Origin: a virus | Virus record (IMG/VR): IMGVR_UViG_3300030329_003264 | Span: 8,837-40,489 of that record | DNA length: 31,653 nt | Direction: 5' to 3' (one strand) | Part shown: positions 3,375 to 28,303 of the stretch, one piece after another | How the letters are laid out: the number at the start of each line of letters is the position of its first letter | Position numbering within the stretch: the first letter of the stretch is position 1 | The notes under the pieces: generated by a model | What the model was told of the DNA's origin: nothing | Databases searched by the model: none | Seen by the model: only the letters and a program-made list of their open reading frames with translations | Position numbers and translations under genes: made by a program

Positions 3375-4322
3375 TCATCCTATGGACAAAACTTTATCAT
3401 AAGCATCATACTTCAGATCGTTGATTTTGTCAAGTGTCTCTTCTCGGCGTAGAATTTTGAAAGCGATGTTCTCCGCTGAGTATTCTTGTTCGGGACTGTG
3501 TAGGCCTGCCCTACGCATCCGTCGAATTTTATCTTTAAGTCTATCTAACGATTTGACAGCAGCGAGAGGTTTTTCGTCTACAATCTTTTCGATAAGATTG
3601 GCCTCCGCTTCAATGCCATCAGCCTTCTTGCGCGCTGTGATATAGTCATAATCAATCTTATCAGGATCAGGCTCGATAACCCATTCTTTATTTATTATCG
3701 AATAGATGCCTGCCGAATGTGTAACGTGGCCCACGTTCTCTACAAAAATTTCTATCTCATGGCCATAAATGGTAATGTCGTGTAGTTCGTTCCAGCGCCA
3801 TATGGCGCCATAGAAAAAATCTTCTACTAGTTTGGTATTCTCATCAATTTTGGAGAAGTCTACGACGATGTGGAGGTCCACATCGGAATACTTTGACCAG
3901 TTATAGTTAGCTAGACTACCAGTCAATCGCAAATCCTCCATCTCGGCGTCAATATCAAGCCCATTCAAAAACTCATTTGCAATCTTTTTTAATCTTTTAG
4001 CGATCTTAGGGTTAAGTTTTCCGGCTAGCCAGAACTTAGGCGCCAATTCTGCCTGCTTGTCAAAACTCTCTGGGTCCACCTCTTCTTCTAGGCCTCCCGG
4101 TGCGCCGGGTGGTGCCGAGATGTCATTAAACTTTTTGCGACGGAAGCTGGGGCGTTTTTTGCCTCCTGGCCACCCTCCTTTCTTTTGAGGGCCGGTATCA
4201 AGAAAGAAGTTAAGAGAACGCTCCAATCCTGCGCCTGATTTGCGCGAGGGCTTCTTGCGCTTCTTAGATTTCTTTTTACGTTTTGCTTCCGCAAGGTATT
4301 GTTGCCATTTATCCATTCTCAT
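3375..4322 (-). CDS. Nucleotidyltransferase-fold protein with capsid-targeting-like N-terminus, 315 aa
   Basis: Three parts are visible. Residues 1-12 (MRMDKWQQYLAE, then A) resemble the T4 capsid-targeting sequence, which precedes a cut after (L/I)-x-E. Residues 14-66 are extremely basic and disordered, rich in K, R, G and P, suited to binding packaged DNA. From about 105, a polymerase-beta-type nucleotidyltransferase core appears: T-G135-S136, then D147-V-D149, and a later strand HEIEIFVEN that would supply the third carboxylate. Homologous cores transfer a nucleotide to protein, RNA or a small molecule; the substrate here is unknown. Inference: it is packaged in the capsid, trimmed, and injected. 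It overlaps the upstream fibre-like gene by one base (TAATG). Confidence 0.82.
   Translation of the reverse strand: MRMDKWQQYLAEAKRKKKSKKRKKPSRKSGAGLERSLNFFLDTGPQKKGGWPGGKKRPSFRRKKFNDISAPPGAPGGLEEEVDPESFDKQAELAPKFWLAGKLNPKIAKRLKKIANEFLNGLDIDAEMEDLRLTGSLANYNWSKYSDVDLHIVVDFSKIDENTKLVEDFFYGAIWRWNELHDITIYGHEIEIFVENVGHVTHSAGIYSIINKEWVIEPDPDKIDYDYITARKKADGIEAEANLIEKIVDEKPLAAVKSLDRLKDKIRRMRRAGLHSPEQEYSAENIAFKILRREETLDKINDLKYDAYDKVLSIG
3405..3433 (-). promoter_or_regulatory. Sigma-70-type promoter inside 3' end of nucleotidyltransferase gene
   Basis: The minus strand reads TTGACA (3428..3433), 17 bases, TATGAT (3405..3410). It lies within coding sequence and would serve 3135..3371 and the small genes beyond. 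Confidence 0.55.
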
Positions 4323-6302: not shown

Positions 6303-9300
6303 CTATACCTGCTTCTGGTAACTAATAAATACGGGCAATTCCTCCAGGCCGGCCTTCTTAGCGAACCATATTAAATCTTCTCCTCCTGTAATCTTTGCGC
6401 GCCCATTTTGACCGATGGCTAAGTAAACAGGGTTTTGAGCGCCATCCTTAATGAAATGGTGATAACGCCCTTGAAAATCATTCATATCTCCGCGATAGGA
6501 AGAGTTCGTGAGGGGCGCTAGCTCTTCCACTGGCATCATTACCGAATACCGCATATCCGTAGTATTCATGGGAGTGTCATAAAGTTGGACGCCACCCTCC
6601 GACCAATCATCAATCATTTTCTGAAGCGCTGGGCGTGGAGTTGGAAGCGGTGCGGAGTCGGGGCGCCCAGTATTTCCTAGCATTCCGGCTAGCCCTCCAA
6701 AATTGCCTACTTGCCACCCGCCATAGCTTTCGCGTACTGTGCGGATCGTACCACGTACATTGGTTCGATGAATAGGGCTCCAGTCCACAAGGTTGACACC
6801 CGGTACTAATCGCAATTCGGGAAAAATAACATCATCTCTAAACTCAACTCTGTTTTTTGCGCCAAGTATCTCAAACTTGATTTCAAATACATTATAGTCT
6901 GCTTGTGGGGTAAGAGGACGCTTCATCTCAGGCACAGACTTGACCGTTGTCACCCCCGGAATACCACGAATCTGAGTCTCAATCTCCATTTCTGCGCCGC
7001 CCAGATCGTTGTTCACAGAACACCCAATTTGCATAGTGTAAATCCGCAAGTCAATCGGTGACTCTTTTTCGTTTAGCAGTGCGTCTATTCTTGCGATTTG
7101 ATCTTCAACGCTCTCGTTGACTGGCGAACTATCGGCCAACCCAACACCACGGCGCTGGCGTTCGTTCTGGACTAGATCCCACCAAACACGCGGCTCGCCT
7201 GTGTCGGGATTGATTGCTGCGTTGTTTCCAAAGATGCGGAAGACTTGACCACCATCACCCAGCATCGGTCCAATGTATTTAAAGTAAGCCACGAACTTCT
7301 CAATTTCATCCATCTGTGCGTAGTTGTCGCGGATCCACATCGCAATAAGCATACGGCGCTCATCGTCATCGTTGCCGGCATCAGCGCGGGCGCCAAACCT
7401 ACTATTCATCTCGTTGTAATAGCTAACCGCTGTGTTAGGGTTTAGTATCCTTGATTTTTTAGCCTGCACAGCATCGTTTAGCTCGCTCATCGGCACTGCG
7501 ATAATGTCTCGCACAGCCTCGCGCACGATGCCTGGATTGTCGTTGACGTGTTTAGCCATAGCCAGCACGCGATCGATCTCCTCCACATCATCATCAAAGC
7601 CAACGCGGATTTGAAAGAAGAAGTCAAACGAAAGGGTCGGGACGCGATTGGGCTCTCTAACATCGTATCTAACCCTCGGATAAATAACCAACTCTATGTC
7701 TTTCGCAAGCTCCATCGCAGGCTTCGCTTCGTATTGAGGTCCAAAGTCAAACTCCTCTTGTCCAGACGCAGCCATCTTTGATCGCTGTGCTGAACCATAA
7801 GCATCGTTAAGGCGAGTTGCCATCTGCGCGTTCAACGATGGACCGCGAACTTCGGTGCCCCTTGTGCGGTAGTTTGGAAACATCGCCATTATGACGCTAT
7901 TGGTATCCGCGCGCTCGGGGGCCGTCCGATAAATCATTACCTCGGTGGGCATTGCTAATCCTGTGGGCAGCTTGTTGCCGACGTTGCCATCATTCTTCTC
8001 ATCGATGAATGTAAGTTTGGCGTCGGAACTATCAACGTAAACGCTCCAATGTTTAAGATCGTTGATCTGTTGGAGCTTGCCCATATCTTTAACGTATGCG
8101 TTCTGCTTCATATACTCTTCAGCTTGAAGCTCTGCCTGGATAGATCTGACGTGTTCTTTATACTTGTCTTCTTCATCGAAGTCATCTTGCACAGTTTGTT
8201 GGAAGTTTGAGCACTCATAAGCCGCGCTAGAGCCGCCTTGTCGTTCTTCGTCTTCAAAGGTTTCTGACGTTCTGATGGTCACGATTAGGTGTGCTGTCTC
8301 AGGATACTCTTCGTCTCCATCCCAATCATCAGGCACTTCGCCCTGTAGCATCCTAAACTCAAGTTCAATATCAACAAGTTCGCCAGGAAGTTCGTCAGCC
8401 ACAGCATCAATACCAACATCTTTCACAAACTCGTTTTGCTTGCTATAAGTTGTCGGGATCATTTGCAAGCCAGTGATTGGGTTGCCTTGTTTATCCATCG
8501 CGATGTAGCCGCCTTTGGTTTCAAAGAACATTGGCCAACCAAGATCGATTTCCATAATGGCTTCTACCGTCGCATTAACATAGATTTTGTTCTCGTCTTC
8601 GCCATAATCATCAATCTCAAAATACACTTCGCTGCGCTCTAAGCCATCCATCTCATAGCCAAGATTTTGAAGCTCGTTCTCAAGCTCATCTACGCGGGCT
8701 TGGCGATTGCCGGCAAAGCTGGCGTTGGTCTGGCTCTCAAGATAGTCATTCATGTACTCAAAGTCTTCGGGTGCGTCAGAATATTCGCCTTTCTCTTCTA
8801 CAGTGTCGATACCCATATTGTCTATGAACCATACGATGTGATTCCACATAGCTTCGGGTGGTGCGCTGTTGCCTCTGCCTTTGATTTGGTAGACAGTCTC
8901 GCCATCTGACTCAAGCGTCACGAACGACTTAGACTTGCCGCGCTTGCCTTCGGGCTTGCGGAGAGAGTAAAGGTTGCCGCCGCTCTGCCCAGCACCGCAG
9001 TGCCCCATTCGCTCACCTTCAATGTCGCACGAACCTGCCTGTAAATCATACCAATACGAGCCATCATCAAACTTGTGAAGGATCTGATCGGGATCTTCCA
9101 TCTCTGATAGTTCTGCTTCGGCTTTTTCATCAGCACCAATCATGAGTTTATACTCGTTAATAACTCTGATGTTGTCTGGATGTAGATTTAAGAACGTGAA
9201 GGTATCACGGAAGCGTGTCTCAAATGCTTTCCACGCGCGATCTTCTGTGTTCTGTAGCACCTCTTGAACAAACTCGACCACTTCGCTCTTGAGCCCCAGC

Positions 9301-9767
9301 TTGCTAAGGTTTTTTACAGCCTTCTTGAAGGCTCTCGGCCACTTGCCCAGAGACTCATCTTTAATGGTTCGGTTGATGTTCTTGAGTATTTGCTTGGTGC
9401 GATCGGCTTTCTCAGTGCTCCACTCTACACCTTCTTTAAGGATGCTCTCAAACTGAACGTCTGGGGTGGGCTCATCTAAAGGTAGATCGTCTGGCTTCGT
9501 GCCGGCTGTGTAATAGTCAAGAGCCGACAGGAGCGGCTCCATCGTCTCAAAGCGAAGGCGCTGCATTTGTATGCGGGTCATATACTGGTGGAGATGCGTT
9601 CGCTTCCACATGTGCCCCATCCACGTCTTTGCGCTCTCGGGCGCATCGTTTAACGCAGACTCAATAAAGTCAGCGATCATTTCGGTAAGCCCAATGTCTC
9701 GGACTCCCTCGTCTAATCTTACATTTTCTTTAAGGTATCTAAACCATTTATCACTTGAATAACCCAT
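6303..9767 (-). CDS. Large multidomain probable virion cargo protein, 1154 aa
   Basis: The N-terminus SSDKWFRYLKENVRL (residues 4-18) parallels the DKWQQYLAE start of 3375..4322 and resembles a T4 capsid-targeting sequence cut after L-x-E. Residues about 225-320 look like a PcfJ-type domain: CDIEGERMGHCG (247-258), then YSLR, TLES and QIKGRGNSAPP. Residues about 903-997 have a ferredoxin-like pattern (IRGIPGVTTVKSV ... VFEIKFEI ... LVPGVNLVDW). The last 44 residues resemble a ParB/sulfiredoxin-type core (PVYLAIGQNGRAKITGG, then LEELPVFI). The middle is acidic and unassigned. Start ATG 9767 has GAGG upstream. Inference: a capsid-internal protein delivered with the DNA; activity is not known. 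Confidence 0.8.
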   Translation of the reverse strand: MGYSSDKWFRYLKENVRLDEGVRDIGLTEMIADFIESALNDAPESAKTWMGHMWKRTHLHQYMTRIQMQRLRFETMEPLLSALDYYTAGTKPDDLPLDEPTPDVQFESILKEGVEWSTEKADRTKQILKNINRTIKDESLGKWPRAFKKAVKNLSKLGLKSEVVEFVQEVLQNTEDRAWKAFETRFRDTFTFLNLHPDNIRVINEYKLMIGADEKAEAELSEMEDPDQILHKFDDGSYWYDLQAGSCDIEGERMGHCGAGQSGGNLYSLRKPEGKRGKSKSFVTLESDGETVYQIKGRGNSAPPEAMWNHIVWFIDNMGIDTVEEKGEYSDAPEDFEYMNDYLESQTNASFAGNRQARVDELENELQNLGYEMDGLERSEVYFEIDDYGEDENKIYVNATVEAIMEIDLGWPMFFETKGGYIAMDKQGNPITGLQMIPTTYSKQNEFVKDVGIDAVADELPGELVDIELEFRMLQGEVPDDWDGDEEYPETAHLIVTIRTSETFEDEERQGGSSAAYECSNFQQTVQDDFDEEDKYKEHVRSIQAELQAEEYMKQNAYVKDMGKLQQINDLKHWSVYVDSSDAKLTFIDEKNDGNVGNKLPTGLAMPTEVMIYRTAPERADTNSVIMAMFPNYRTRGTEVRGPSLNAQMATRLNDAYGSAQRSKMAASGQEEFDFGPQYEAKPAMELAKDIELVIYPRVRYDVREPNRVPTLSFDFFFQIRVGFDDDVEEIDRVLAMAKHVNDNPGIVREAVRDIIAVPMSELNDAVQAKKSRILNPNTAVSYYNEMNSRFGARADAGNDDDERRMLIAMWIRDNYAQMDEIEKFVAYFKYIGPMLGDGGQVFRIFGNNAAINPDTGEPRVWWDLVQNERQRRGVGLADSSPVNESVEDQIARIDALLNEKESPIDLRIYTMQIGCSVNNDLGGAEMEIETQIRGIPGVTTVKSVPEMKRPLTPQADYNVFEIKFEILGAKNRVEFRDDVIFPELRLVPGVNLVDWSPIHRTNVRGTIRTVRESYGGWQVGNFGGLAGMLGNTGRPDSAPLPTPRPALQKMIDDWSEGGVQLYDTPMNTTDMRYSVMMPVEELAPLTNSSYRGDMNDFQGRYHHFIKDGAQNPVYLAIGQNGRAKITGGEDLIWFAKKAGLEELPVFISYQKQV

Positions 9768-12113: not shown

Positions 12114-13685
12114 TTACTCCGTTTGTATGATCCCATAATTAGTGGTAATTAAAGTGCCTGCGCAGCTAGCCGCATTTTGCAACGCTGTTCGGGTAACTTT
12201 AACGGGATCGATAATTCCACTTTTAAATAGATCAACTATCTCTCCGCTTCTAAAATTCCAGCCATAATTAAGATCAGCCTCCAAGACTTTCTCGATTATT
12301 ATGTCAGGAGACTCATTAGCATTTAGCGCCATCTGGCGCAAAGGGGCTCGGCATGCCTCTCTGATAACGGCGGCGCCGTAGGCCTGCTCATCGTGCTCAG
12401 CGGTGATAGCTATCTTTTGAGAAGCCAAAAGAAGAGCGGCGCCACCACCGCACACGATGCCTTCTTGCTGGGCAGATCGGACCGCTTCTAGCGCGTCTTC
12501 GATACGATGTTTTTTCTCGGTCATCTCAACTTCGGTAGCGCCGCCCACTCGAATAACTGCTACCCCGGATGAAAGGCGCACAACTCGCTCTTGGATACGA
12601 CTACATTCTGTCATCGAATCAGTGTCTTTAATCAGTTGCTTCAGCGAACCAATTTTTGCTTCAATATCTTCATAATCTGCGGCCCCTCCTACAATAGTCG
12701 AAACATATTTATTGCTCTCGATAAACTCCGCAGTTCCCAAATCAGTTAACTGGACCTCCGACAGTTTCGTGCCGCTCTCTCGCGTAATAAATGTTGCCCC
12801 TACAGAAAGCGCCACATCTCCTAGAATATTTCGTCGTTCTTCGCCATAGAAAGGCGCCTTGATTGCAGCAATCTTTAAAGTTCCACGCATGGCGTTCATA
12901 ATCATTGCCGCCAATGCTTGTCCTTCGATATCTTCAGCTATCACTACTAAAGGTCGATTTTCGCGAGCAATCATCTCCAAAACGGGCAAGATAGATTCAA
13001 CATTAGAAATCTTATGATCTGTCACCATAAATAAAGGCTCTTCGTATCTCATTATCCCACGGCGCTCATCCGTGACAAAAGCTCCTGCGCAAAATCCCGC
13101 ATCAAAGCGGAACCCTTCCGTCAAATCGAGAGAAGTTTCAATCGAGCGAGACTCTTCGATCGTAATAGAGCCATCCTGGCCTACTTTATCTACAGCAGTG
13201 CCAATCAGTTTTCCAATGGTTGGATCGTTATTGGCCGAAATGGTAGCCACATGTTGTATATCTGAGACACTCTTAACTGGCTGTGAGAGTTCTTCTAAGT
13301 TCAATACCACTTCCCTAACAGCCAGATCGATGCCACGTTGTAGCTCGATAGGAGATACGCCTGACGCGATAAATCGTTGGGATTCGCGCAAGATAGCTCG
13401 CGCAAGCACTGTTGACGTTGTTGTTCCATCGCCGGCCTCATTATTAGTTTCAATAGCCGCTTGACGTAAGATTTGGGCGCCCGCATTTTCAAATGGATCC
13501 TCTAGTGCTACGAACGCTGCGACTGTCACACCGTCCTTGGTAATAAATGGTTGCTTGTCTTTTTCTTTAAGCAGAACATTGCGACCTTTCGGTCCAAGTG
13601 TTGATGCTACGTTGTCTGCTAGTACGTTGGCGCCCTTAATAATCTTCTGTTGTAGAGTTTGATTGTCATCATAAGCTCTGCTCAT
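12114..13685 (-). CDS. groEL: GroEL-type chaperonin (HSP60), 523 aa
   Basis: A full-length group I chaperonin. The ATP site is intact: TLGPKGRNV (29-37), Asp51 in ITKDG, Asp86 in AGDGTTT, and Asp397 in RIEDAL, matching E. coli Asp52, Asp87 and Asp398. The apical domain is present between about 185 and 370. The Gly-Gly-Met tail of bacterial GroEL is absent; the protein ends NYGIIQTE. The role expected is folding of phage proteins, typically the major capsid protein or other large products, in the cytoplasm. GroES is not adjacent; a GroES-like gene lies about 17 kb away at 30993..31280. GAGGGA precedes the ATG, behind a perfect consensus promoter. Divergent from host-type sequences, so old phage ancestry is likely. 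Confidence 0.97.
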   Translation of the reverse strand: MSRAYDDNQTLQQKIIKGANVLADNVASTLGPKGRNVLLKEKDKQPFITKDGVTVAAFVALEDPFENAGAQILRQAAIETNNEAGDGTTTSTVLARAILRESQRFIASGVSPIELQRGIDLAVREVVLNLEELSQPVKSVSDIQHVATISANNDPTIGKLIGTAVDKVGQDGSITIEESRSIETSLDLTEGFRFDAGFCAGAFVTDERRGIMRYEEPLFMVTDHKISNVESILPVLEMIARENRPLVVIAEDIEGQALAAMIMNAMRGTLKIAAIKAPFYGEERRNILGDVALSVGATFITRESGTKLSEVQLTDLGTAEFIESNKYVSTIVGGAADYEDIEAKIGSLKQLIKDTDSMTECSRIQERVVRLSSGVAVIRVGGATEVEMTEKKHRIEDALEAVRSAQQEGIVCGGGAALLLASQKIAITAEHDEQAYGAAVIREACRAPLRQMALNANESPDIIIEKVLEADLNYGWNFRSGEIVDLFKSGIIDPVKVTRTALQNAASCAGTLITTNYGIIQTE

Positions 13686-13738: not shown

Positions 13739-15901
13739 CTATTTGTTGGTTTTCTTTTTGCCTTCATTAAAAGTGTCGCCGCGGACCTGGGCGCCTCCCA
13801 TGGCTTGGGGGCGGCCAACGGCAGGCGGGGTCGACTGTGAGTCTGGGCGATCAAGTATTTCCTTACTGATAATATTGTTTGCGTTGCTAACCGCAAGTCG
13901 AGCGAGGCCATCTTTCTTCAATCCGCCGGCGAAAAACTTATTCAGATTATCAGAAAGTTTTTTTAGCGAATCAAAAATCTCACGAATTTCACCATTAAGA
14001 ATCTCTCTTACAGCATCTAACATTCCGACCACATACTTTGCGCCAACTTTAATCTCGCCCAAATAGTCCGCGCCGGTACCGCCTTGTACTTTGATGTCTT
14101 CTCCTGTGGTATCATCTTTATCGTACTTGACTTCGCCGGGGGGAGCGCTGTCTGTGGCCTGCGTCTGGTTAAGAGAGAAATGCATAGTAGTTAAGTAACC
14201 AAGAGTATGTTTTAAAATAATCTTTTTATATTTGTCATCTTGGCTCCCATAAAACTTCGCGGAAGCTTCAGGAGACAAAAAACCTCCTTCGGTCTCTAGG
14301 ACCGCTTTAATCATGGCCTTGCGCTCGTTATCAATCTCAGAAGCCCGAAAAACACCCAGCACGCCATTCTCATCATCCATGCGCGCATCATAGTTATCAT
14401 CCTTCTTCTCATTCTTTCCCCACGTGCGCTTCGCATTGTTGGCGCTTCGGAGTACCGCTGATAAATCATAGGCCAAGTTATCTAAGAAGGCCTTTCGCTG
14501 GCGGTCTGTCATTGGCTTATCAGTCCCCGGCTTATAATAAAGCAACTTATACAGATCTGGGTTCTTCTGAGGATCCTTTTCGATTGTTTTCCAATATGAT
14601 TCTGCCCAGTCTTTGGCCCAATCATTGGTCGCGTAATAGTCCATGGACGAAAATCCTCTAACCTTGCCCTTGTTTTCTCTTTGTTTTACGGGCTTTCCAG
14701 TGACGGGATCTAATTCCGGCTCCTCTCCTTTCTTATGCGGAATTACTATGATATAATCACCAAACAATGGATCGTTAGTGTCCCAATTAAGTTGACTGAG
14801 CATATCATCAAACTCTAAGTCGCTGCGCAAAACGTAATTTAACAGCCCCTTGGAGCCTGTCCTGGATTCGGCTTGACCGGAGCGCAACATGGCCAAGTGG
14901 CGCTTCAATTTAGGAATGTACACATCAGTGTAAATTTCCTGGGCGCTAGGCATAACGGTTTTACTCGGGAGACCTAGGATATTCTCATATTGCTCATCCG
15001 ATGCTTCGGCGCCTTTGCCGGTGATCTTGCTCACAACTGCTTGAGGGATGCGAATACACTCGGCGGACACTTGTTTGGAGTTCACCAAAATCCACATCAC
15101 ATTCCCAAGCGTGAAGTCGAACTGCCAAAATTTAATCTCGCCTTCTTGCTCTAGGCTCTCTCCCGTGAGATCTTTGGTACATACAACATATCGCATTCCC
15201 CCTCCGATAGCCTGGGGATTGTCGGGATCGACAAGATCGTTCACTAAATCCGTATAGCTTCCGCCCACTTCCAAGCCACCTTCGCGGTACAACTTTAGGC
15301 TGACTGGAATTCCAGGACCGCTCAGGTTGTCGGTATAATCAGCGATCGTGTTGTTGCCGGGCGGAATCTGCTGGCCACGACACAGTGCCGATAAAAATGA
15401 TTCAAAACTAAAACCCGCCGAAGACGCATTAAAGTTTGTAATAACCTTGGTGAGTGTTTTATAAAACACAAGGTAGGAAATAGCCTGGGTGATCTTCTGG
15501 GCTCTGTCTGAGGCTCCTGATTCAGCGATGATGCCCGTTCCGTTCTCATAAAACCGCGACACATTGTTGATACGCTCTTCAAATGTGGCTCCTTGAATAT
15601 TTTCAAGATAGTCTTCCAGCAGCGCTCTCTGGGGGCCACTAACAGTTTGTTCTTCTTCGCCTTTCTTAACCGTTCGAACATCAGACCAGCCAATCTCGGA
15701 CACCTCAATGTTAGGTATCATTTTGAGGCTCATTTCTAGTGCCTCTTCATCAGACATATTATCGACTGTGGGCACACTGTCTTCGGCAATAACCAATGGC
15801 GAATCGAGAACTTCCTCGATCATTCCCATCAACACTCTCACATCAAGCTGATTAACTTGCTTGATGTATTCCTCTCTCAAAATTTCTCGTAAGTCTGACA
15901 T
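13739..15901 (-). CDS. Large probable virion-associated protein, 720 aa
   Basis: Begins MSDLREILREEYIKQVNQL, a helical head of the kind seen on aquatic-phage virion proteins, and ends in a disordered G/P/K-rich tail. In the middle (about residues 160-240) AGFSFESFLSALCRGQQI is followed by NTIADYTD and VSLKLYREG ... VGGSYTDLV. This E...D...xLK arrangement resembles the core of restriction-type nucleases, but the match is loose. A lysine-rich region (KKGEEPELDPVTGKPVKQRE) and a helical C-terminal part follow. No named family is recognised. It lies between the ClpP-like gene and groEL; AGGA lies upstream of the ATG. Confidence 0.75.
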   Translation of the reverse strand: MSDLREILREEYIKQVNQLDVRVLMGMIEEVLDSPLVIAEDSVPTVDNMSDEEALEMSLKMIPNIEVSEIGWSDVRTVKKGEEEQTVSGPQRALLEDYLENIQGATFEERINNVSRFYENGTGIIAESGASDRAQKITQAISYLVFYKTLTKVITNFNASSAGFSFESFLSALCRGQQIPPGNNTIADYTDNLSGPGIPVSLKLYREGGLEVGGSYTDLVNDLVDPDNPQAIGGGMRYVVCTKDLTGESLEQEGEIKFWQFDFTLGNVMWILVNSKQVSAECIRIPQAVVSKITGKGAEASDEQYENILGLPSKTVMPSAQEIYTDVYIPKLKRHLAMLRSGQAESRTGSKGLLNYVLRSDLEFDDMLSQLNWDTNDPLFGDYIIVIPHKKGEEPELDPVTGKPVKQRENKGKVRGFSSMDYYATNDWAKDWAESYWKTIEKDPQKNPDLYKLLYYKPGTDKPMTDRQRKAFLDNLAYDLSAVLRSANNAKRTWGKNEKKDDNYDARMDDENGVLGVFRASEIDNERKAMIKAVLETEGGFLSPEASAKFYGSQDDKYKKIILKHTLGYLTTMHFSLNQTQATDSAPPGEVKYDKDDTTGEDIKVQGGTGADYLGEIKVGAKYVVGMLDAVREILNGEIREIFDSLKKLSDNLNKFFAGGLKKDGLARLAVSNANNIISKEILDRPDSQSTPPAVGRPQAMGGAQVRGDTFNEGKKKTNK

Positions 15902-15909
15902 TTTATTTC

Positions 15910-16536
15910 CTAAACAATGATATCGGCAATTCCAAGTTTAACTGCTTCTGTTGCAGATAAATAGACGTTAACATTGCGATTTAACATATCTTTTATATCC
16001 GCTGGAGTCATATTGGTCTCTGCCGATAAAGCATTCGTGTACATTTCCTGTAAATCGGAAATGGCCTCCAGCTCATTGGTTAAGTCCTGAAGGTTTCCGT
16101 GGTTTCCTGCCGCCACCGAGTGGATCATCACGCGGCAGTTCTTTGCTATGCGGCGTTGGCCTTTCGTTCCAGCAGCCAATAACAGCACACCCGCAGACAT
16201 AACCTTGCCTAGGCCCAGCGTGTGAATCTCGGTGTCTTGGCGAATAGTGCGCATTATATCATAGAGCGCAAACATGTCGTCAGCGCTTCCTCCATAGGTG
16301 GAGAGGTAAAATTCAATAGGGCGCTTGTTTTCTTCTTTCTTCTGTATCTTGTTCATCTCATTGAGATAAAGCATGGCGTGAATAACTTCGGCCACCTTTT
16401 CTTCATGAACATCGCAAAACATTCCGATGATGCGCAAATCAGGCTCAGGGGATTCTCCTCCCAGAGCACTAGGATCGAGCAATACGATCTGCTTGCTGTC
16501 ATCGGTCGTCAATTTATCAAGAAGTTTTTTTATCAT
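15910..16536 (-). CDS. ClpP-like protein 1, 208 aa, with Asp-to-Asn at the triad
   Basis: The ClpP/crotonase fold is clear: LSTYGGSADDMFALYD (substrate-binding glycines), nucleophile Ser114 in GKVMSAGVLLLAAG, His139 in RVMIHS, and the C-terminal SATEAVKLGIAD. The residue aligned with the catalytic Asp appears to be Asn190 (NRNVNVYLSA), which would weaken or alter activity. The length is normal for ClpP. It sits among virion-type genes, so it may process procapsid proteins or act as a structural ClpP-fold subunit. It differs strongly from the second ClpP-like protein at 23977..24585. It overlaps the upstream membrane protein gene by 20 bases. Confidence 0.88.
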   Translation of the reverse strand: MIKKLLDKLTTDDSKQIVLLDPSALGGESPEPDLRIIGMFCDVHEEKVAEVIHAMLYLNEMNKIQKKEENKRPIEFYLSTYGGSADDMFALYDIMRTIRQDTEIHTLGLGKVMSAGVLLLAAGTKGQRRIAKNCRVMIHSVAAGNHGNLQDLTNELEAISDLQEMYTNALSAETNMTPADIKDMLNRNVNVYLSATEAVKLGIADIIV

Positions 16537-18185: not shown

Positions 18186-18508
18186 AACTCGGGGTGCTCC
18201 TCTTCAATGAGATCGAATATATTTTCTATCTCTCCATCGTTCAATCCAAAATCTTCCATTTTCTGCTTTCCTTTGTCTCTCAACTGCTTTGATTTTGCTT
18301 TCTTCTTTTTGTTCTGCGGCTTCATATCGTCAATGTAGCTTTGTATGCGTTCATCACCATCTAGATAGCCGGCGATGATAGCGCGAAAGAACTTTGATTG
18401 TGTTACACCATCGTGACGCAACTTTAAGATAAGTTTGGCGTGTTGGTGCGTGTTCTCAACAAACGCAACCTTCTTATCCAAATGAGGATTGGCTACGTCT
18501 TCAGACAT
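18182..18508 (-). CDS. Hypothetical protein, 108 aa
   Basis: The ATG at 18508 overlaps the TAA of the IMPDH-family gene (TAATG) and has GAGG upstream; a longer frame from 18568 would overlap that gene by 61 bases. After [20 protein letters not shown] comes a helical part with 'TQSKFFRAIIAGYLDGDERI', a Lys-rich stretch (KKKKAKSKQLRDKGKQK) and an acidic end 'FDLIEEEHPEL'. The FFRAIIAGYL helix pair recalls ribbon-helix-helix or small nucleic-acid-binding proteins, but this is only a resemblance. Function unknown. Confidence 0.74.
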   Translation of the reverse strand: MSEDVANPHLDKKVAFVENTHQHAKLILKLRHDGVTQSKFFRAIIAGYLDGDERIQSYIDDMKPQNKKKKAKSKQLRDKGKQKMEDFGLNDGEIENIFDLIEEEHPEL

Positions 18509-19527
18509 TACCAATTCCTCGTATTGATATGGGTGCGACTCTCTGATAAGCCAGATGTGGTCTGGCAAACGAACTGAGCTTTCGCTTGAAGCTCTCGCAA
18601 GTTGCGCGCGCCGCTATATGAGAATCCCGATCTTATGCCCTTCTCCAGGTCTTCAAGAATTAGCTCTACAGGGCCGCGGTGCGGAACGCGGGTGGCCACG
18701 CCCTCAAACGATGAATATTTGCCGCGCCATTCTACTTGCGCCTCCTTAGAGGCCATTCCCCGATAGGTTTTCCATCGTGTCCCCTTCGCATCCATAAAAA
18801 TTTCTCCAGGCGCCTCAGTGGTTCCCGCAAGCAAAGAGCCTACCATTACCGCGTCTGCCCCTGCGGCCAGTGCCTTAACCATATCACCAGAGTTCTTGAT
18901 GCCTCCATCAGCGATAATTTTAACGTCCCTATCTGTCTTAGCACATTCGATAATGGTCTGGAGGCCGGGTAAGCCATGACCGGTCTGTATTCGCGTGGAA
19001 CAAATAGAGCCACCGCCAATATTACACCGAACACTATCGGCCCCCCAATCAGCGAGATCGTTGATGCCCTCAAGCGTTGCGACATTTCCGGCCATAATAT
19101 GATAGTCATCGCCAAACAGCCTCCTTAGCTCATAAAGAGCCTCTTTCATCATTACATGATGACCATGAGCCACATCCACGCACAAGAAGTCGGCGCCATA
19201 ATCCGCTAGCGCGCTGGCGCGCTCCAAATAGTCGCCAGAGATGCCAATCGCGGCGCCGATGATACGAGGAGACTCTACTCTATTGATCTCATTCATTTGC
19301 TCTTGAATGGTGTTGTATCGATGAATAATTGCGCTGGCGCCTGCTTTGCCCATCGCGGTGCCCATGGCGCCTTCGGATATCGTGTCCATTGGCGAAGCCA
19401 AAATAGGTAGCTGAAGTATGACGCCCTTTCCTAAATCTACACCTATATCAATTTCGGACCGGCTTCTAATGTCTGAATATTGCGGCTTCAATAACACATC
19501 GTCATATGAATAAGTATTTTTTATCAT
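18508..19527 (-). CDS. IMP dehydrogenase / GMP reductase family enzyme, no CBS domains, 339 aa
   Basis: A TIM-barrel enzyme of the guaB/guaC family: opening [31 protein letters not shown], the catalytic loop GGGSICSTR with Cys176, [18 protein letters not shown] and [10 protein letters not shown]. No CBS pair is present and the length suits GMP reductase or a minimal IMPDH. The catalytic-loop sequence and the later flap mix features of both, so the direction (IMP to XMP, or GMP to IMP) is not settled. Either reaction would alter the purine pool for phage DNA synthesis. Neighbouring thioredoxin-like gene overlaps as ATGA. Confidence 0.9.
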
Positions 19528-23976: not shown

Positions 23977-24585
23977 CTACTTGAACTCAAACTCTACTTT
24001 AACTCCAATCTTCATTTCAGGCACCTTAAGCTTGTTGGCTAGCTTGTGGCGCTTGGCCTCTTTGGCATCCAAAAACCAATCGGCATGCCCCTTTTCGTGA
24101 ACAATATCAAGAAAGTACTCTTCATGGTGGCCACAATTCTTAGCCATCATCCGATAAATCTTCTGATTTAATCTCTCGACTTCTTTTGCATCGGCTTTGA
24201 TCTCTTCGACCTTTCCCCAGCCCATTGAACTCACATCGTGGATCATAACGGTAGCGTCGGGATCCATATATCGCATACCATCAACGCCGAAACTAAACAA
24301 GATAGCTCCGCACGACATTGCTTTTCCCTGGACAATGGTAGCAACCGGGATACGCGAATGCTCAATATCCGAAATCATAGACATAAGGCTGTAGACCTGA
24401 CCGCCGTAGCTATCAATAATAACTGGGAGCACTGGCTGGCCTGTATTTTGGGCCCTTGCCACATCCTTCGAAAACTCCTGCGCAGCTTTCTCGTCAAACT
24501 TGTTGACGCGAATAACGACGGGCAAGCTCTCGCTTCTAAACTTAACTTCTTTGAGCAGTGCGCTCGGTGTATAAATAATGTTCAT
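23977..24585 (-). CDS. ClpP-like serine protease 2, 202 aa
   Basis: The ClpP fold is clear: IIDSYGGQVYSLMSMIS (substrate glycines), nucleophile Ser91 in GKAMSCGAILFSFG, His116 in ATVMIHDVSS, and Asp169 in HADWFLDAKEA. The full triad is kept, unlike ClpP-like protein 1. An insertion after the His (GWGKVEEIKADAKEVERLNQ) is typical of the head-group helix. No Clp ATPase is encoded nearby, so it would use host ClpX/ClpA or act alone. It lies directly downstream of dnaE. AGGA lies before the ATG. Confidence 0.9.
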   Translation of the reverse strand: MNIIYTPSALLKEVKFRSESLPVVIRVNKFDEKAAQEFSKDVARAQNTGQPVLPVIIDSYGGQVYSLMSMISDIEHSRIPVATIVQGKAMSCGAILFSFGVDGMRYMDPDATVMIHDVSSMGWGKVEEIKADAKEVERLNQKIYRMMAKNCGHHEEYFLDIVHEKGHADWFLDAKEAKRHKLANKLKVPEMKIGVKVEFEFK

Positions 24586-24588
24586 TTT

Positions 24589-27500
24589 TTATCCTAGTAG
24601 TCTGAATGTTTTACCTACAGCGTAGGTTGAAAAGCCCCAGTTCTCGTCGTACTTTAAGCGAGCCATGTATGGGCGGTTCAAGTGAATGCGATCCTTTTCG
24701 GGCTTGACGCCCCAACACCGGATGCGGGTGAGTTCATTGTTGCTGTCGATAACCTCGACGATCCAATAGTTCTTTCCGTTCTTTGTTTTTCTCGGAGTAA
24801 TCTTGCGCGGGATAAACCAGCACACCTGTAGTTCCTGATCGAACTCAGAGATGGGAGGTACAAACTTCTCTTGTAGTCTCTGAACTGTAGCCGGCGTGAT
24901 GACCAAGTTAATCGGGAATACGCCAGTCAAGTCAGTCTTGAACTGGATAATCTCTTCCTCGGTGAAATCTCCCTCGGGGCGGTAAAGTTCCAAATTCTCA
25001 GAAAATCTCTTGGGATTTTTTGGGCGATCTACGATACACGCAGACCAAAAGTGTTTTCTGCCAGTGAATCGATCATCTACGATGCCATCCAGCGCGCCAC
25101 CACGGCAGAGAGCATCAAGCGCCTTCTTGTTTAACTTACTGTATACTATCTCCTCTCGGAACAGCAGATCCTCTGCGTTGGTGAACGGACGATGGTCGAG
25201 CACTTGCTCGATAGCTTTCTCTCCCAGGCCCTTGATGGATGTGAGCGGCTGGATGAGTGTCTTGCCATCGTCGCTGATTTCCCACACCTTTCCTGACTTG
25301 TTGATGTCCAGGGGCGCAATCTTGAAGCCATACTTCTTGGCGATGTTGATTGCCTTTTCCTTTCTGCTCTCGGGCTCTTTGTCCAAGAACGCCGCCATCC
25401 ACTCAGCCGGGTAGTAGTTGAACAACCACGCACACTGGAACGAGATGATAGAATAGCTGACTGCGTGAGACTTGTTGAAGCCGTAGCCTGAGAAGAACTC
25501 AAACTTGTCCCACAGATCTTGAGCAGCGTCACGGGCTATACCCTTGTCAACACATCCTGTGATGAACTTCTTGTGTAGCTTGCCTTTCACGCTGTTCTTT
25601 CCAGTTCCCTTCTTCGTCAAAACCTTCCGCAAAAGGTTACCCTCGTCAAGAGTTAGACCGCCCAGCTTGTGACCCAGCAGAGCAATCTGCTCTTGGAAAA
25701 TCAAAAAGCCAAATGTCTCCTCAGTGATCTCTCGCGCATCCTCGGATAGATACGACACGTATTGCGGGTGCTCCTTGGCTTCCACATAGTCTGCGTCCAC
25801 GCCGGCCGACAATGGACCGGGGCGGAAGATGGACGTAATAGCCGAGATATCAATGATGCTGTTCGGCTTTGCCTTCGTACAGAAGTTCTGTGCTCCGTGC
25901 TCTGTGAACTGGAAGACACCAGCCCAACGGCCTGGGTGAAAAATGTTTTGATACACCTCCTCATCATTTAGATCCAGCGCATCGGGATGGAGATACTGCA
26001 TGTAGTAGTCTCGCACCTGTGCGAACGTCGGCTCTTCCACGCCATGATGACGGCGCAAAATGTGATAGATTGCGCCTTCCATCATCTTTAACGTAGATAG
26101 GCCCAGCAAGTCAAACTTAATGAACCCCATCGGCTCCAGGTGTCTGACGTTCTGGCCTTCTGCCCAGGGAGCTTGACGCACACCACCAGAGTTAATCAGC
26201 GGCATACTTTGGTCTAGGTTCTCTGCGATAACCACGCCACCAGCGTGACGTGAGCACGACCGCACCTGACCTACAAGTCCCTCAACGTGAGCCTTAACTG
26301 CTGGATACTTGGCGAGGTAGCTTTGTAGCGAAGGAGAGAACTCCATCACCTCTTCCCACGTGGGCGCATAGATACCAGCCTTGATGCCGTGCTTCTTCTT
26401 CGCCTCGGGGGTGGCCTCGCGCATCATCACGCCTGTCACTCGGTTAGCATCGGTAAATGGAATGTCATACAGCTTGGAGATATCTTTAATCAATGATCTC
26501 AGCTGAAGCGTGTTCCAGTTAGAGATTGGCGCTACGCAATCGGCACCCCACATCTCCACCAGCTTCTCCTTCAGGGCCATACTATCCGACACATCATAGT
26601 CAATGTCTGGGTAGTCTGTAGCATCTGACCGCAAGAAGCGGGAGAACAGCAGCCCATACTTGATAGGATCAACCTGCGTGATACCCAGCGCATAGGCCAC
26701 CAGCGAACCAGCCGCAGAACCACGCCCAGGACCAGTCAGCATCATTGTGGACGCCACGTCAGCGATAGACTTCATCGTTAAGAAATACTTAGAGAAGCCT
26801 CGGTCATCAATAACATCTAGTTCATGCTTAAGTCGCTGAACATACTCAGGGTTCTTGTGTAGCTGTCGCTCCTTCAATCCCTCCAGCGCATACTGAACGA
26901 GCGCCTGTGTTGCCGTGTAGCCTGCTGGAACCACGAAACTTGGTAGACGCACCGTGTTGTCTGGAAAGAACTTTTCAATGCGGTCAAACGCGATACGGTG
27001 CGACTCTTCGATACTCTCGCGCACCAAGTCATCGTCGTACTCAAAGCCGCCCTCGGAGGCATACTTCTTATAGCTCTCCCACATCTGGTCGCCGTTCTTG
27101 GGATACAGCTCGTAGCCCACTTCTTCAACGCCCTCGGGCAACTCCGACTCCATGTAATCTGGTAGACCTCCCTTACCTAGCCAGCCTAGGCGAGTGTATA
27201 GTTCCCGATCTTTCCACGCATCTGGATTGGGGTAGTGGCTATCGGCTGTGCTCAGAAGTTTAACGTTGTGCTTCTGTGCTGTGTGGATAATGTATTGGTT
27301 CAGCTTGTGCTGATCCTCCACATTATTCCATTGAATCTCGGCATACCAGCGATCACCAAAGATATCTACCATCTTCTCAGTCGTCTCACTCATCGCATTA
27401 AGCACAGCCTCATCGCCTTCTTCGCGATTCTCCCAGTAGTTTCCAGCATACACGCCACCGAGACACGCAGAGGCAGCGATGATGCCCTCGTTGTACTTCT

Positions 27501-28017
27501 TTAATAGCGCGTAATCAATGCGAGGATAGCGATAAAAGTTTTCTGGCTGGTAAGACTCAGACACCAATTTAAAGAGGTTGTTGAGCCCTGTCTGGTTCTG
27601 TGCGAGAAGAACAAGGTGGCGGCGCCGGCGAAGGATATCTTGAACTTTCTTACTGCTGCCTTCGTCTTCAACAGTTGCGCCCGATTGGTCGGCCTTTTTG
27701 ATTGATCGGGCGCGCTTCTTATCTTCCATCGCTCTTTCGTATTCCTCTCGCCACTCTTCCAGCGACGGGATGAAGTACGCTTCGCAACCATAGATAGGTT
27801 TGAAGTCCTTGCCCTCTTCCTGCATCTTCTTGGCGTGCAGAACCTGATACGCTAGCCCGTTCATGTTTCCATGATCGGTGAGCGCCAATGCCTCTCCTCC
27901 ATTGTCGTAACAAAAATCCATATGCGCCTGGGGGTATCCCAGCGCATCAAAGATGGAACCTGCTACACTATGGGCATGGAGTCCCACAAACTTGATCTTC
28001 GATGTCTTTCGACTCAT
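24589..28017 (-). CDS. dnaE: DNA polymerase III alpha subunit (DnaE-type), 1142 aa
   Basis: The ATG at 28017 is preferred because AAGGAG lies 6 bases upstream; a longer frame would begin inside a membrane-protein gene. Domain order: PHP domain at the N-terminus (LHAHS at 13-17, LTDHGNMNG at 47-54), palm with GPGRGSAAGSLVAYALGIT (429-447) and the catalytic carboxylates in DYPDIDYDVSDS (Asp471, Asp473), fingers with RSCSRHAGGVVIA, FRPGP and EEQIALL-type motifs, helix-hairpin-helix near FNKSHAVSYS ... IKGLGEKAIEQV, and an OB-type domain at the C-terminus. It copies the genome; clamp loader and clamp are not in the window. Confidence 0.97.
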   Translation of the reverse strand: MSRKTSKIKFVGLHAHSVAGSIFDALGYPQAHMDFCYDNGGEALALTDHGNMNGLAYQVLHAKKMQEEGKDFKPIYGCEAYFIPSLEEWREEYERAMEDKKRARSIKKADQSGATVEDEGSSKKVQDILRRRRHLVLLAQNQTGLNNLFKLVSESYQPENFYRYPRIDYALLKKYNEGIIAASACLGGVYAGNYWENREEGDEAVLNAMSETTEKMVDIFGDRWYAEIQWNNVEDQHKLNQYIIHTAQKHNVKLLSTADSHYPNPDAWKDRELYTRLGWLGKGGLPDYMESELPEGVEEVGYELYPKNGDQMWESYKKYASEGGFEYDDDLVRESIEESHRIAFDRIEKFFPDNTVRLPSFVVPAGYTATQALVQYALEGLKERQLHKNPEYVQRLKHELDVIDDRGFSKYFLTMKSIADVASTMMLTGPGRGSAAGSLVAYALGITQVDPIKYGLLFSRFLRSDATDYPDIDYDVSDSMALKEKLVEMWGADCVAPISNWNTLQLRSLIKDISKLYDIPFTDANRVTGVMMREATPEAKKKHGIKAGIYAPTWEEVMEFSPSLQSYLAKYPAVKAHVEGLVGQVRSCSRHAGGVVIAENLDQSMPLINSGGVRQAPWAEGQNVRHLEPMGFIKFDLLGLSTLKMMEGAIYHILRRHHGVEEPTFAQVRDYYMQYLHPDALDLNDEEVYQNIFHPGRWAGVFQFTEHGAQNFCTKAKPNSIIDISAITSIFRPGPLSAGVDADYVEAKEHPQYVSYLSEDAREITEETFGFLIFQEQIALLGHKLGGLTLDEGNLLRKVLTKKGTGKNSVKGKLHKKFITGCVDKGIARDAAQDLWDKFEFFSGYGFNKSHAVSYSIISFQCAWLFNYYPAEWMAAFLDKEPESRKEKAINIAKKYGFKIAPLDINKSGKVWEISDDGKTLIQPLTSIKGLGEKAIEQVLDHRPFTNAEDLLFREEIVYSKLNKKALDALCRGGALDGIVDDRFTGRKHFWSACIVDRPKNPKRFSENLELYRPEGDFTEEEIIQFKTDLTGVFPINLVITPATVQRLQEKFVPPISEFDQELQVCWFIPRKITPRKTKNGKNYWIVEVIDSNNELTRIRCWGVKPEKDRIHLNRPYMARLKYDENWGFSTYAVGKTFRLLG

Positions 28018-28303
28018 TCTTTCTCCTTGAAATTTTAACCCAAATTGCCCACATAACGGGCACAGCAATAGGATGAAGGCACAGTAACCAGCTTACTGGG
28101 GCCCCTGTGAGGAACCACGGATTGACATTGTTTCCCAGCCAAATAAATAGCAATGGAAACATAACGTCTTCGATGATTTCCCATATAATGAAAATCACCA
28201 AGAACGCTAAGCCGTGCTGCTTAAGGATGTTTTTAAAATGCGACCACTTGAAGTGATGCAACTTATGCGTGAGCCTATGCCACAGACTTTTAAGTATCTT
28301 CAT
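27968..28303 (-). CDS. Small membrane protein, 111 aa
   Basis: A basic amphipathic head (KSLWHRLTHKLHHFKWSHFK) is followed by two transmembrane segments (LAFLVIFIIWEIIEDVMFPL and WLLCLHPIAVPVMWAIWV) and a charged tail. The 'FIIWEIIEDVMFPLLF' and 'CLHPIAVPVMW' stretches look like conserved core elements found in aquatic phage and bacterial small membrane proteins. The end overlaps the dnaE start by 50 bases, so expression of the two is probably linked. Function unknown. Confidence 0.75.
   Translation of the reverse strand: MKILKSLWHRLTHKLHHFKWSHFKNILKQHGLAFLVIFIIWEIIEDVMFPLLFIWLGNNVNPWFLTGAPVSWLLCLHPIAVPVMWAIWVKISRRKNESKDIEDQVCGTPCP

Follow-up and report, generated by a model that had tools for sequence, protein, structure and literature searches.

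The window analysed here, a 31,653-nucleotide stretch of DNA covering positions 8837-40489 of the 40,489-base IMG/VR virus record IMGVR_UViG_3300030329_003264, encodes a protein that joins an N-terminal head resembling the capsid-targeting sequence (CTS) of T4 to a nucleotidyltransferase (NTase) core. This protein is quite probably an enzyme that a marine phage of the T4 superfamily packages in its head; it would be recruited to the prohead through its CTS-like head, cut by a gp21-type protease, ejected, and employed to transfer a nucleotide at the start of infection. The open reading frame (ORF), the head, and the GS...DxD motif that the initial annotation had placed at 3375-4322 are all present (minus strand, 315 aa; G135 S136 ... 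D147 x D149). According to the ORF translation, the protein starts with MRMDKWQQYLAEAKRKKKSKKRKK, the longer N-terminal stretch being MRMDKWQQYLAEAKRKKK, and is laid out as the head DKWQQYLAE/A (a slash marks a predicted or known cut), a disordered basic linker, and a GS-x10-DxD NTase.

Capsid-targeting-like head

Ten residues of T4 IPIII are enough for packaging, with positions 4 and 7 serving in targeting and positions 8 and 10 in processing, and gp21 cleaves after L/I-x-E (PMC9026906). All four functional positions are matched by the window head, in which W6, Y9, L10, and E12 have the same spacing as Y4, F7, I8, and E10 of T4. The W-x-x-[FY] pair is kept in the window protein and 12 orthologues (L003, L014-L027; L017 and L018 read directly as SWDDY), and the exact [LIV]-x-E spacing is seen in about 8 of these 13 proteins, the remaining ones having xE 3-4 residues later. 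In the wider NTase family, the strict head motif was found in 9 of 70 members (0.18 expected by chance); universality of the head across the family was thus rejected, and the DKWxxYLxE head that the initial annotation expected of homologues is conserved, as W-x-x-[FY], only among the close orthologues. A huge-phage NTase homologue (L012, from a 735-kb uncultured phage) starts with MLKYNSFIKEEF, its Y4, F7, I8, and E10 being exactly T4-like.

Enrichment and portability of the head

Across ten related contigs, the motif W..[FY][LIVM].E occurred at 21 of 20,000 N-terminal vs 4 of 215,775 internal positions, a 57-fold enrichment (p 3e-19), which became 21-fold (8 vs 4, p 1e-6) after removal of the NTase family and of the family of a 1154-aa window protein carrying a second copy of the head. 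This W-only statistic, in which W is the residue named in the initial annotation, was computed after a wider [WFY] test that gave just 3-fold enrichment (p 0.011) without the two families. No F- or Y-type heads were found at N-termini in the ten contigs; therefore, this group uses W, and the F-type is the cyanophage form. Chance is excluded as an explanation of the N-terminal head. In the T4 control (NC_000866.4), the aromatic motif stands at the N-termini of 3 of 265 predicted ORFs, i.e., ipII, ipIII, and 61.1 (ORFs were called in Python with a simple longest-ORF picker, and gene counts are therefore approximate). The product of gene 61.1 (18966-19130) begins with the CTS-like MKTFKEFIKED and is absent from the internal-protein list of PMC9026906. 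The annotated T4 nucleotidyltransferase nrdC.11, which was compared with the window NTase by head alone, has no CTS-like head.

Scanning IMG/VR for the tag alone (MKLI.ENWRK[FY]L) returned 32 stretches encoding 26 distinct proteins, and [LIM]xE comes next in 26/26, with the E lying outside the search pattern and having a background frequency of 8.5%. The tag DNAs differ in 25 of the 26, with six Leu and five Arg codons freely used; therefore, the peptide rather than the DNA is under selection. Among the proteins recovered are an M23 peptidase, an NT5C/HAD phosphatase (5'-nucleotidase), and a protein kinase, together with many proteins without known function. The head is thus portable, being found on the NTase, the 1154-aa protein, kinase, HAD, M23, and other proteins, and in a fusion at L020 described below. 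In some contigs, three copies of the MKLIFENWRKFL tag stand on consecutive or near-consecutive genes (L104, L113; L084-L115), which suggests cargo islands. Contig G017 (L033) encodes a 753-aa tagged protein with, by eye, an M23-peptidase-like segment (GSTGGSTGPHLHH) and an NTase; in the versions at L028-L031, a GNAT-like segment, also assigned by eye, replaces the M23-like one.

Prohead protease and head genes in related contigs

A gp21-type prohead protease (PF03420) is encoded by the two largest related contigs, G009 (171 kb, E 4e-32) and G017 (190 kb, E 1e-33), and by none of the 19 shorter ones, as expected of fragments. G009 also encodes an NTase orthologue with the head LRSWWEFLTEA, and its major capsid protein reads LLRE/A where a maturation cut would be expected. 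The parallel with the T4 CTS that the initial annotation drew extends from the four mapped positions to N-terminal enrichment, portability, the [LIM]xE that follows, and a gp21-type protease in two large relatives. Every sequence feature of a CTS that was tested is present in the window head, which supports the view that it behaves like a T4-type CTS.

The same head might be a peptide that binds the prohead core or scaffold without delivery, in which case the NTase would help assembly or ride along and act in the producing cell or nowhere. T4 gp67, gp68, and gp22 are likewise core substrates of gp21 and are largely destroyed (PMC9026906), and several tagged G009 proteins sit in a structural cluster, two of them adjoining the terminase and portal genes. 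This reading is nevertheless quite unlikely, as recognisable enzymes are tagged (M23 peptidase, HAD/5'-nucleotidase, protein kinase, SAM hydrolase, Cas9), the catalytic residues of the NTase are kept, and a homologue is found in the mature virions of cyanophage S-CREM2. A second head type, in which Leu replaces the aromatics (MKITKAQLKKLIAEELEE, MSDLREILREE), was seen on structural-region genes of G009 (96424-97190) and on a 720-aa window protein (13739-15901); such heads may mark another class of gp21 substrates.

A virion-associated homologue and tagged virion enzymes in cyanophages

Packaging of the window NTase would have a counterpart in S-CREM2, in which ORF156 (126012-126725), listed as hypothetical, was detected by mass spectrometry in purified virions, 6 unique peptides giving 15.2% coverage (PMC10665884, Table 3). 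Its product, gp156, is homologous to the window NTase, with which it shares 29% identity over 232 aa in the BLAST alignment, and virion cargo status is therefore more than analogy. The N-terminus of gp156, MKKLISE/L, is close to that of Alt, MELITE/L, where cleavage takes place at ITE-6 (PMC5694885).

Six non-structural virion proteins have been reported for S-CREM2, namely an S-adenosylmethionine (SAM) hydrolase, Cas9, an APH-like kinase, a cytidylyltransferase, and two endolysins (PMC10665884). F..F[LM].E heads are carried by the first four, i.e., by 4 of the 6 vs 1 of 200 other S-CREM2 ORFs (p 1e-6); among all S-CREM2 virion proteins, the motif is only modestly enriched (4/52 vs 1/154, p 0.015), since structural proteins make up most of this set. 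Two further enzymes reported from virions, the kinase of S-CRM01 and the NMNAT of S-SCSM1, likewise carry a CTS-like head. Virions of S-SM1 were found to contain T4-GC190 (PMC3037559), whose P-SSM2 member starts with MKSFSQFLTE. The suggestion in the initial annotation that an injected nucleotidyltransferase would be a new cargo type is thus weakened, since cyanophage virions are already reported to contain a nucleotidylyltransferase of another fold, the T4-GC190 cytidylyltransferase/NMNAT. Among 15 open-access papers using the phrase 'capsid targeting sequence', judged by titles and abstract openings, none deals with marine phages or cyanophages; the link between this tag and cyanophage virion enzymes thus seems undrawn, subscription papers lying outside the search.

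In the Cas9-like nuclease found in S-CREM2 virions, gp12 (L116:7704-10313), the head FASFMAEA lies at about residue 20, and this nuclease is possibly delivered as protein. In S-CRM01, at 98000-104500 (L122), nearly all of genes g125-g131 carry CTS-like or Alt-like heads, among them an NTase, a cytidylyltransferase, a kinase, and small proteins.

It is very improbable that the head serves to direct the protein to a membrane, the nucleoid, or a complex, as an amphipathic helix whose likeness to the CTS arose by convergence. A helix is modelled at residues 3-22, and aromatic amphipathic helices serve many uses; however, the [LIM]xE fixed right after the aromatic pair in 26/26 tagged proteins and the overlap with the non-structural virion proteins of S-CREM2 are specific to processing by a head-protein protease.

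Basic leader and predicted second cleavage site

Residues 41-80 of the window protein form a conserved block that ends in SAPPGAPGG-L78-E79-E80, and LEE80 is proposed as a second prohead-protease site. The residue after LEE is A, S, T, D, E, or V in relatives with other domain orders. In the BLAST alignment, a cut after E80 would fall within about 2 residues of the predicted cut after E7 of gp156, so that nearly the same mature enzyme would be released from both. In the L020 protein, the NTase is missing and the head plus block are joined instead to the product of the neighbouring gene; head and block therefore constitute a separate module. Of the 22 IMG/VR contigs in which the SAPPGAPGG module was found, essentially all bear an NTase; SAPPGAPGGLEE was accordingly rejected as a widely dispersed module. 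The 59-aa linker block had no match in cultured phages. A DNA-binding role for the Lys-run at 13-28 was also rejected, as the run is not conserved in orthologues, making it doubtful that the Lys/Arg-rich linker holds the protein on packaged DNA, as the initial annotation had supposed, although the conserved basic block follows it.

Catalytic core

The GS..DxD superfamily pattern (G[GS]-x7-11-[ST]DxD plus a third acid) is found in the window protein as GSLANYNWSKYSDVD with E191. Of 70 distinct relatives, 69 contain GS..DxD and 64 contain [VI]E[IVLM][YF], which includes the candidate third acid; this conservation argues that the enzyme is probably active. PHROG 36119 matches residues 90-313 (E 2e-38, profile search), and Pfam NTP_transf_2 matches 19/19 aligned members at E <= 0.1 (best 3e-05), with the window member just under the curated cut-off. 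The AlphaFold2 model, built with 19 homologues, has a mean pLDDT of 78.7 (about 90 in the core) and displays a helix at 3-22 and disorder at 23-79. The nearest folds by Foldseek are ANT(9)/AAD(9), CdnC, AadA, LinB, and HEPN-MNT, all of them adenylyl- or nucleotidyltransferases. The transferase core, for which the initial annotation had looked to a structure prediction, is thus borne out by its motif and its NTase-type nearest folds, and not by TM-scores, which are low.

The core does not belong to the ADP-ribosyltransferase family of T4 Alt, since its motif, profile match, and fold are those of an NTase, and does not fall within the aminoglycoside/streptomycin adenylyltransferase models, for which Adenyl_transf matched 1 of 19 members at 0.006 and ANT_4p_II gave 0.013. 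Membership among MntA-type antitoxins was not found either, the model match being only 0.044, and no search was aimed at a HEPN partner gene.

Possible targets are a small molecule, a host protein, RNA, or a defence toxin. Virion cargo that nucleotidylates nucleic acids or small molecules in aid of replication (tRNA end repair, NAD/CDP-type metabolism), rather than attacking a host protein, is somewhat unlikely: weak matches to the poly(A)/tRNA-type palm MTPAP-like_central, the three tRNA genes located 2.3 kb downstream in the window, and the T4-GC190 cytidylyltransferase/NMNAT-like enzyme that is co-encoded and co-packaged in S-CREM2 fit it, but the best folds are those of small-molecule and protein adenylyltransferases (ANT, MNT) and not of CCA enzymes, and tRNA linkage was not seen in the cyanophage loci examined. 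It is unlikely that the enzyme counters host defence at entry, e.g., by adenylylation of a HEPN-type toxin in the manner of MNT antitoxins. The fold matches include HEPN-MNT complexes, the SAM hydrolase, which has anti-restriction activity (PMC10665884), is among the tagged S-CREM2 cargo, and the weak MntA_antitoxin and PADLOC PDC-S09 matches of several members only suggest such a toxin target; the defence-model matches, however, all lie below thresholds.

Proposed mechanism and its implications

In the mechanism that we favour for the window NTase, a packaged and injected enzyme, the aromatic pair W6 and Y9, the counterparts of T4 Y4 and F7, would recruit the protein to the prohead core. A gp21-type prohead protease would then cut after LAE12, and also after LEE80, so that an NTase of about 235 residues would be set free within the head. 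Ejected together with the DNA, the enzyme would put a nucleotide, most likely AMP, on a host or defence target early in infection, thus playing the role that Alt has with ADP-ribose.

Several observations weigh against this mechanism. The head of the S-CREM2 homologue is Alt-like and not W-type, and much of the wider NTase family carries no recognisable head among the 70 distinct relatives scanned. The 40-kb record of the window phage contains no head genes, gp21 included, so that we infer gp21 in this phage from its relatives. The putative second cut site is argued from conservation. Whole-chain TM-scores to solved structures are about 0.2, and the window protein scores below the curated cut-off in every match to a known NTase family. 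Finally, regulatory proteins in S-CREM2 virions might be contaminants according to the authors of that study (PMC10665884); the head common to the S-CREM2 virion enzymes is a reason to doubt contamination.

Beyond the single gene, we lean towards the view that a single portable CTS-like peptide (W-type ENWRK[FY]LxE, F-type MKxFxxFLxE) enables marine phages of the T4 superfamily to stock the head with a large and variable set of enzymes to be delivered, the window NTase being cargo with two protease sites and the tag predicting virion effectors from sequence. Besides NTases, this set would then comprise kinases, SAM hydrolase, Cas9, M23 peptidase, HAD phosphatases, and a large number of uncharacterised proteins. 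If so, a ten-residue motif would predict which uncharacterised genes of phages that rank among the commonest in the ocean have products that enter the cell before phage gene expression. It would also account for the SAM hydrolase, kinase, Cas9, and cytidylyltransferase in cyanophage virions, which their discoverers could not distinguish from contaminants, supply T4-style protein packaging with naturally occurring CTS variants and cargo, and lead one to ask which target an injected adenylyltransferase-like enzyme modifies.

Features of the window

The coordinates of the NTase gene, its parts, and related features are collected in Table 1. The head of the 1154-aa protein is kept in its orthologues in G001, G003, G004, G007, and G011 as W-F-x-Y-[LI]-x-E. 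The window also encodes a Cpn60 chaperonin (12114-13685), two ClpP (15910-16536 and 23977-24585), an IMPDH-type enzyme (18508-19527), and a bacterial-type DNA polymerase III alpha (24589-28068).

Table 1. Features of the window related to the CTS-tagged NTase gene.
Feature	Position	Strand	Basis
CTS-tagged NTase, 315 aa, phrog_36119 family (function not known there)	3375..4322	-	ORF and PHROG match
Capsid-targeting-like head, residues 4-12 DKWQQYLAE, predicted cut after E12	4287..4313	-	Motif, orthologues, T4 functional positions, modelled helix 3-22
Lys/Arg-rich stretch, residues 13-27	4242..4286	-	Not conserved in orthologues, disordered in model
Conserved basic/Pro-Gly block, residues 41-80 (LDTGPQKKGG...KRPSF..KKFNDISAPPGAPGGLEE)	4083..4202	-	Invariant alignment columns
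Predicted second prohead-protease site, L78-E79-E80 then E81	4083..4091	-	L78 and E80 invariant; cleavage predicted
NTase core and C-terminal helical domain, residues 86-315	3378..4067	-	PHROG, model, fold search, Pfam
Active-site motif GSLANYNWSKYSDVD (G135-D149)	3876..3920	-	Kept in 69/70 relatives
E191, candidate third acidic residue	3750..3752	-	Position invariant in 19 proteins
Downstream gene, 78 aa	3135..3371	-	L020 homologue fused directly to tag-plus-linker module, NTase absent
1154-aa protein, function not known, head MGYSSDKWFRYLKEN	6303..9767	-	Head kept in orthologues
Second copy of CTS-like head, DKWFRYLKE	9726..9752	-	In 1154-aa protein

Comparison with known systems

The window protein shares with T4 IPII and IPIII (CTS MKTYQEFIAE) an N-terminal head of decapeptide size, aromatics three apart, [LI]xE followed by a small residue, and a basic segment next. 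Unlike IPII and IPIII, its head has Trp and then Tyr, its cargo is an NTase instead of a small basic protein, and a second LxE cut is predicted at 80. The injected ADP-ribosyltransferase Alt is likewise an enzyme with a short N-terminal propeptide, and the cyanophage NTase homologues begin in an Alt-like manner (MKKLISEL vs MELITEL); however, fold and chemistry are unrelated, and the window protein has a W-type head and an 80-residue leader. S-CREM2 gp156 has a homologous NTase core, from which the long leader is absent; its head is Alt-like, and GG replaces GS. Phage P1 DarB, a large injected protein, has an N-terminal packaging signal that is sufficient for a reporter (PMC9024508), although this signal differs in sequence from the window head and no gp21-type motif is described for DarB.

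Regarding the enzyme itself, the aminoglycoside/lincosamide adenylyltransferases ANT(9), AadA, and LinB, together with CdnC and HEPN-MNT, contain an NTase palm with a helical domain and GS..DxD, whereas the window protein is below the family thresholds with low TM-score, and a distinct set of invariant K/R residues marks its C-terminal domain. Contrary to the GS..DxD fold of the window enzyme, cyanophage T4-GC190 cytidylyltransferase/NMNAT proteins are of the TagD/NMNAT-type HxGH fold; like the window protein, they carry a CTS-like head (MKSFSQFLTE, MKNFSSFLTE) on a virion enzyme that transfers nucleotidylyl groups (PMC3037559, PMC10665884).
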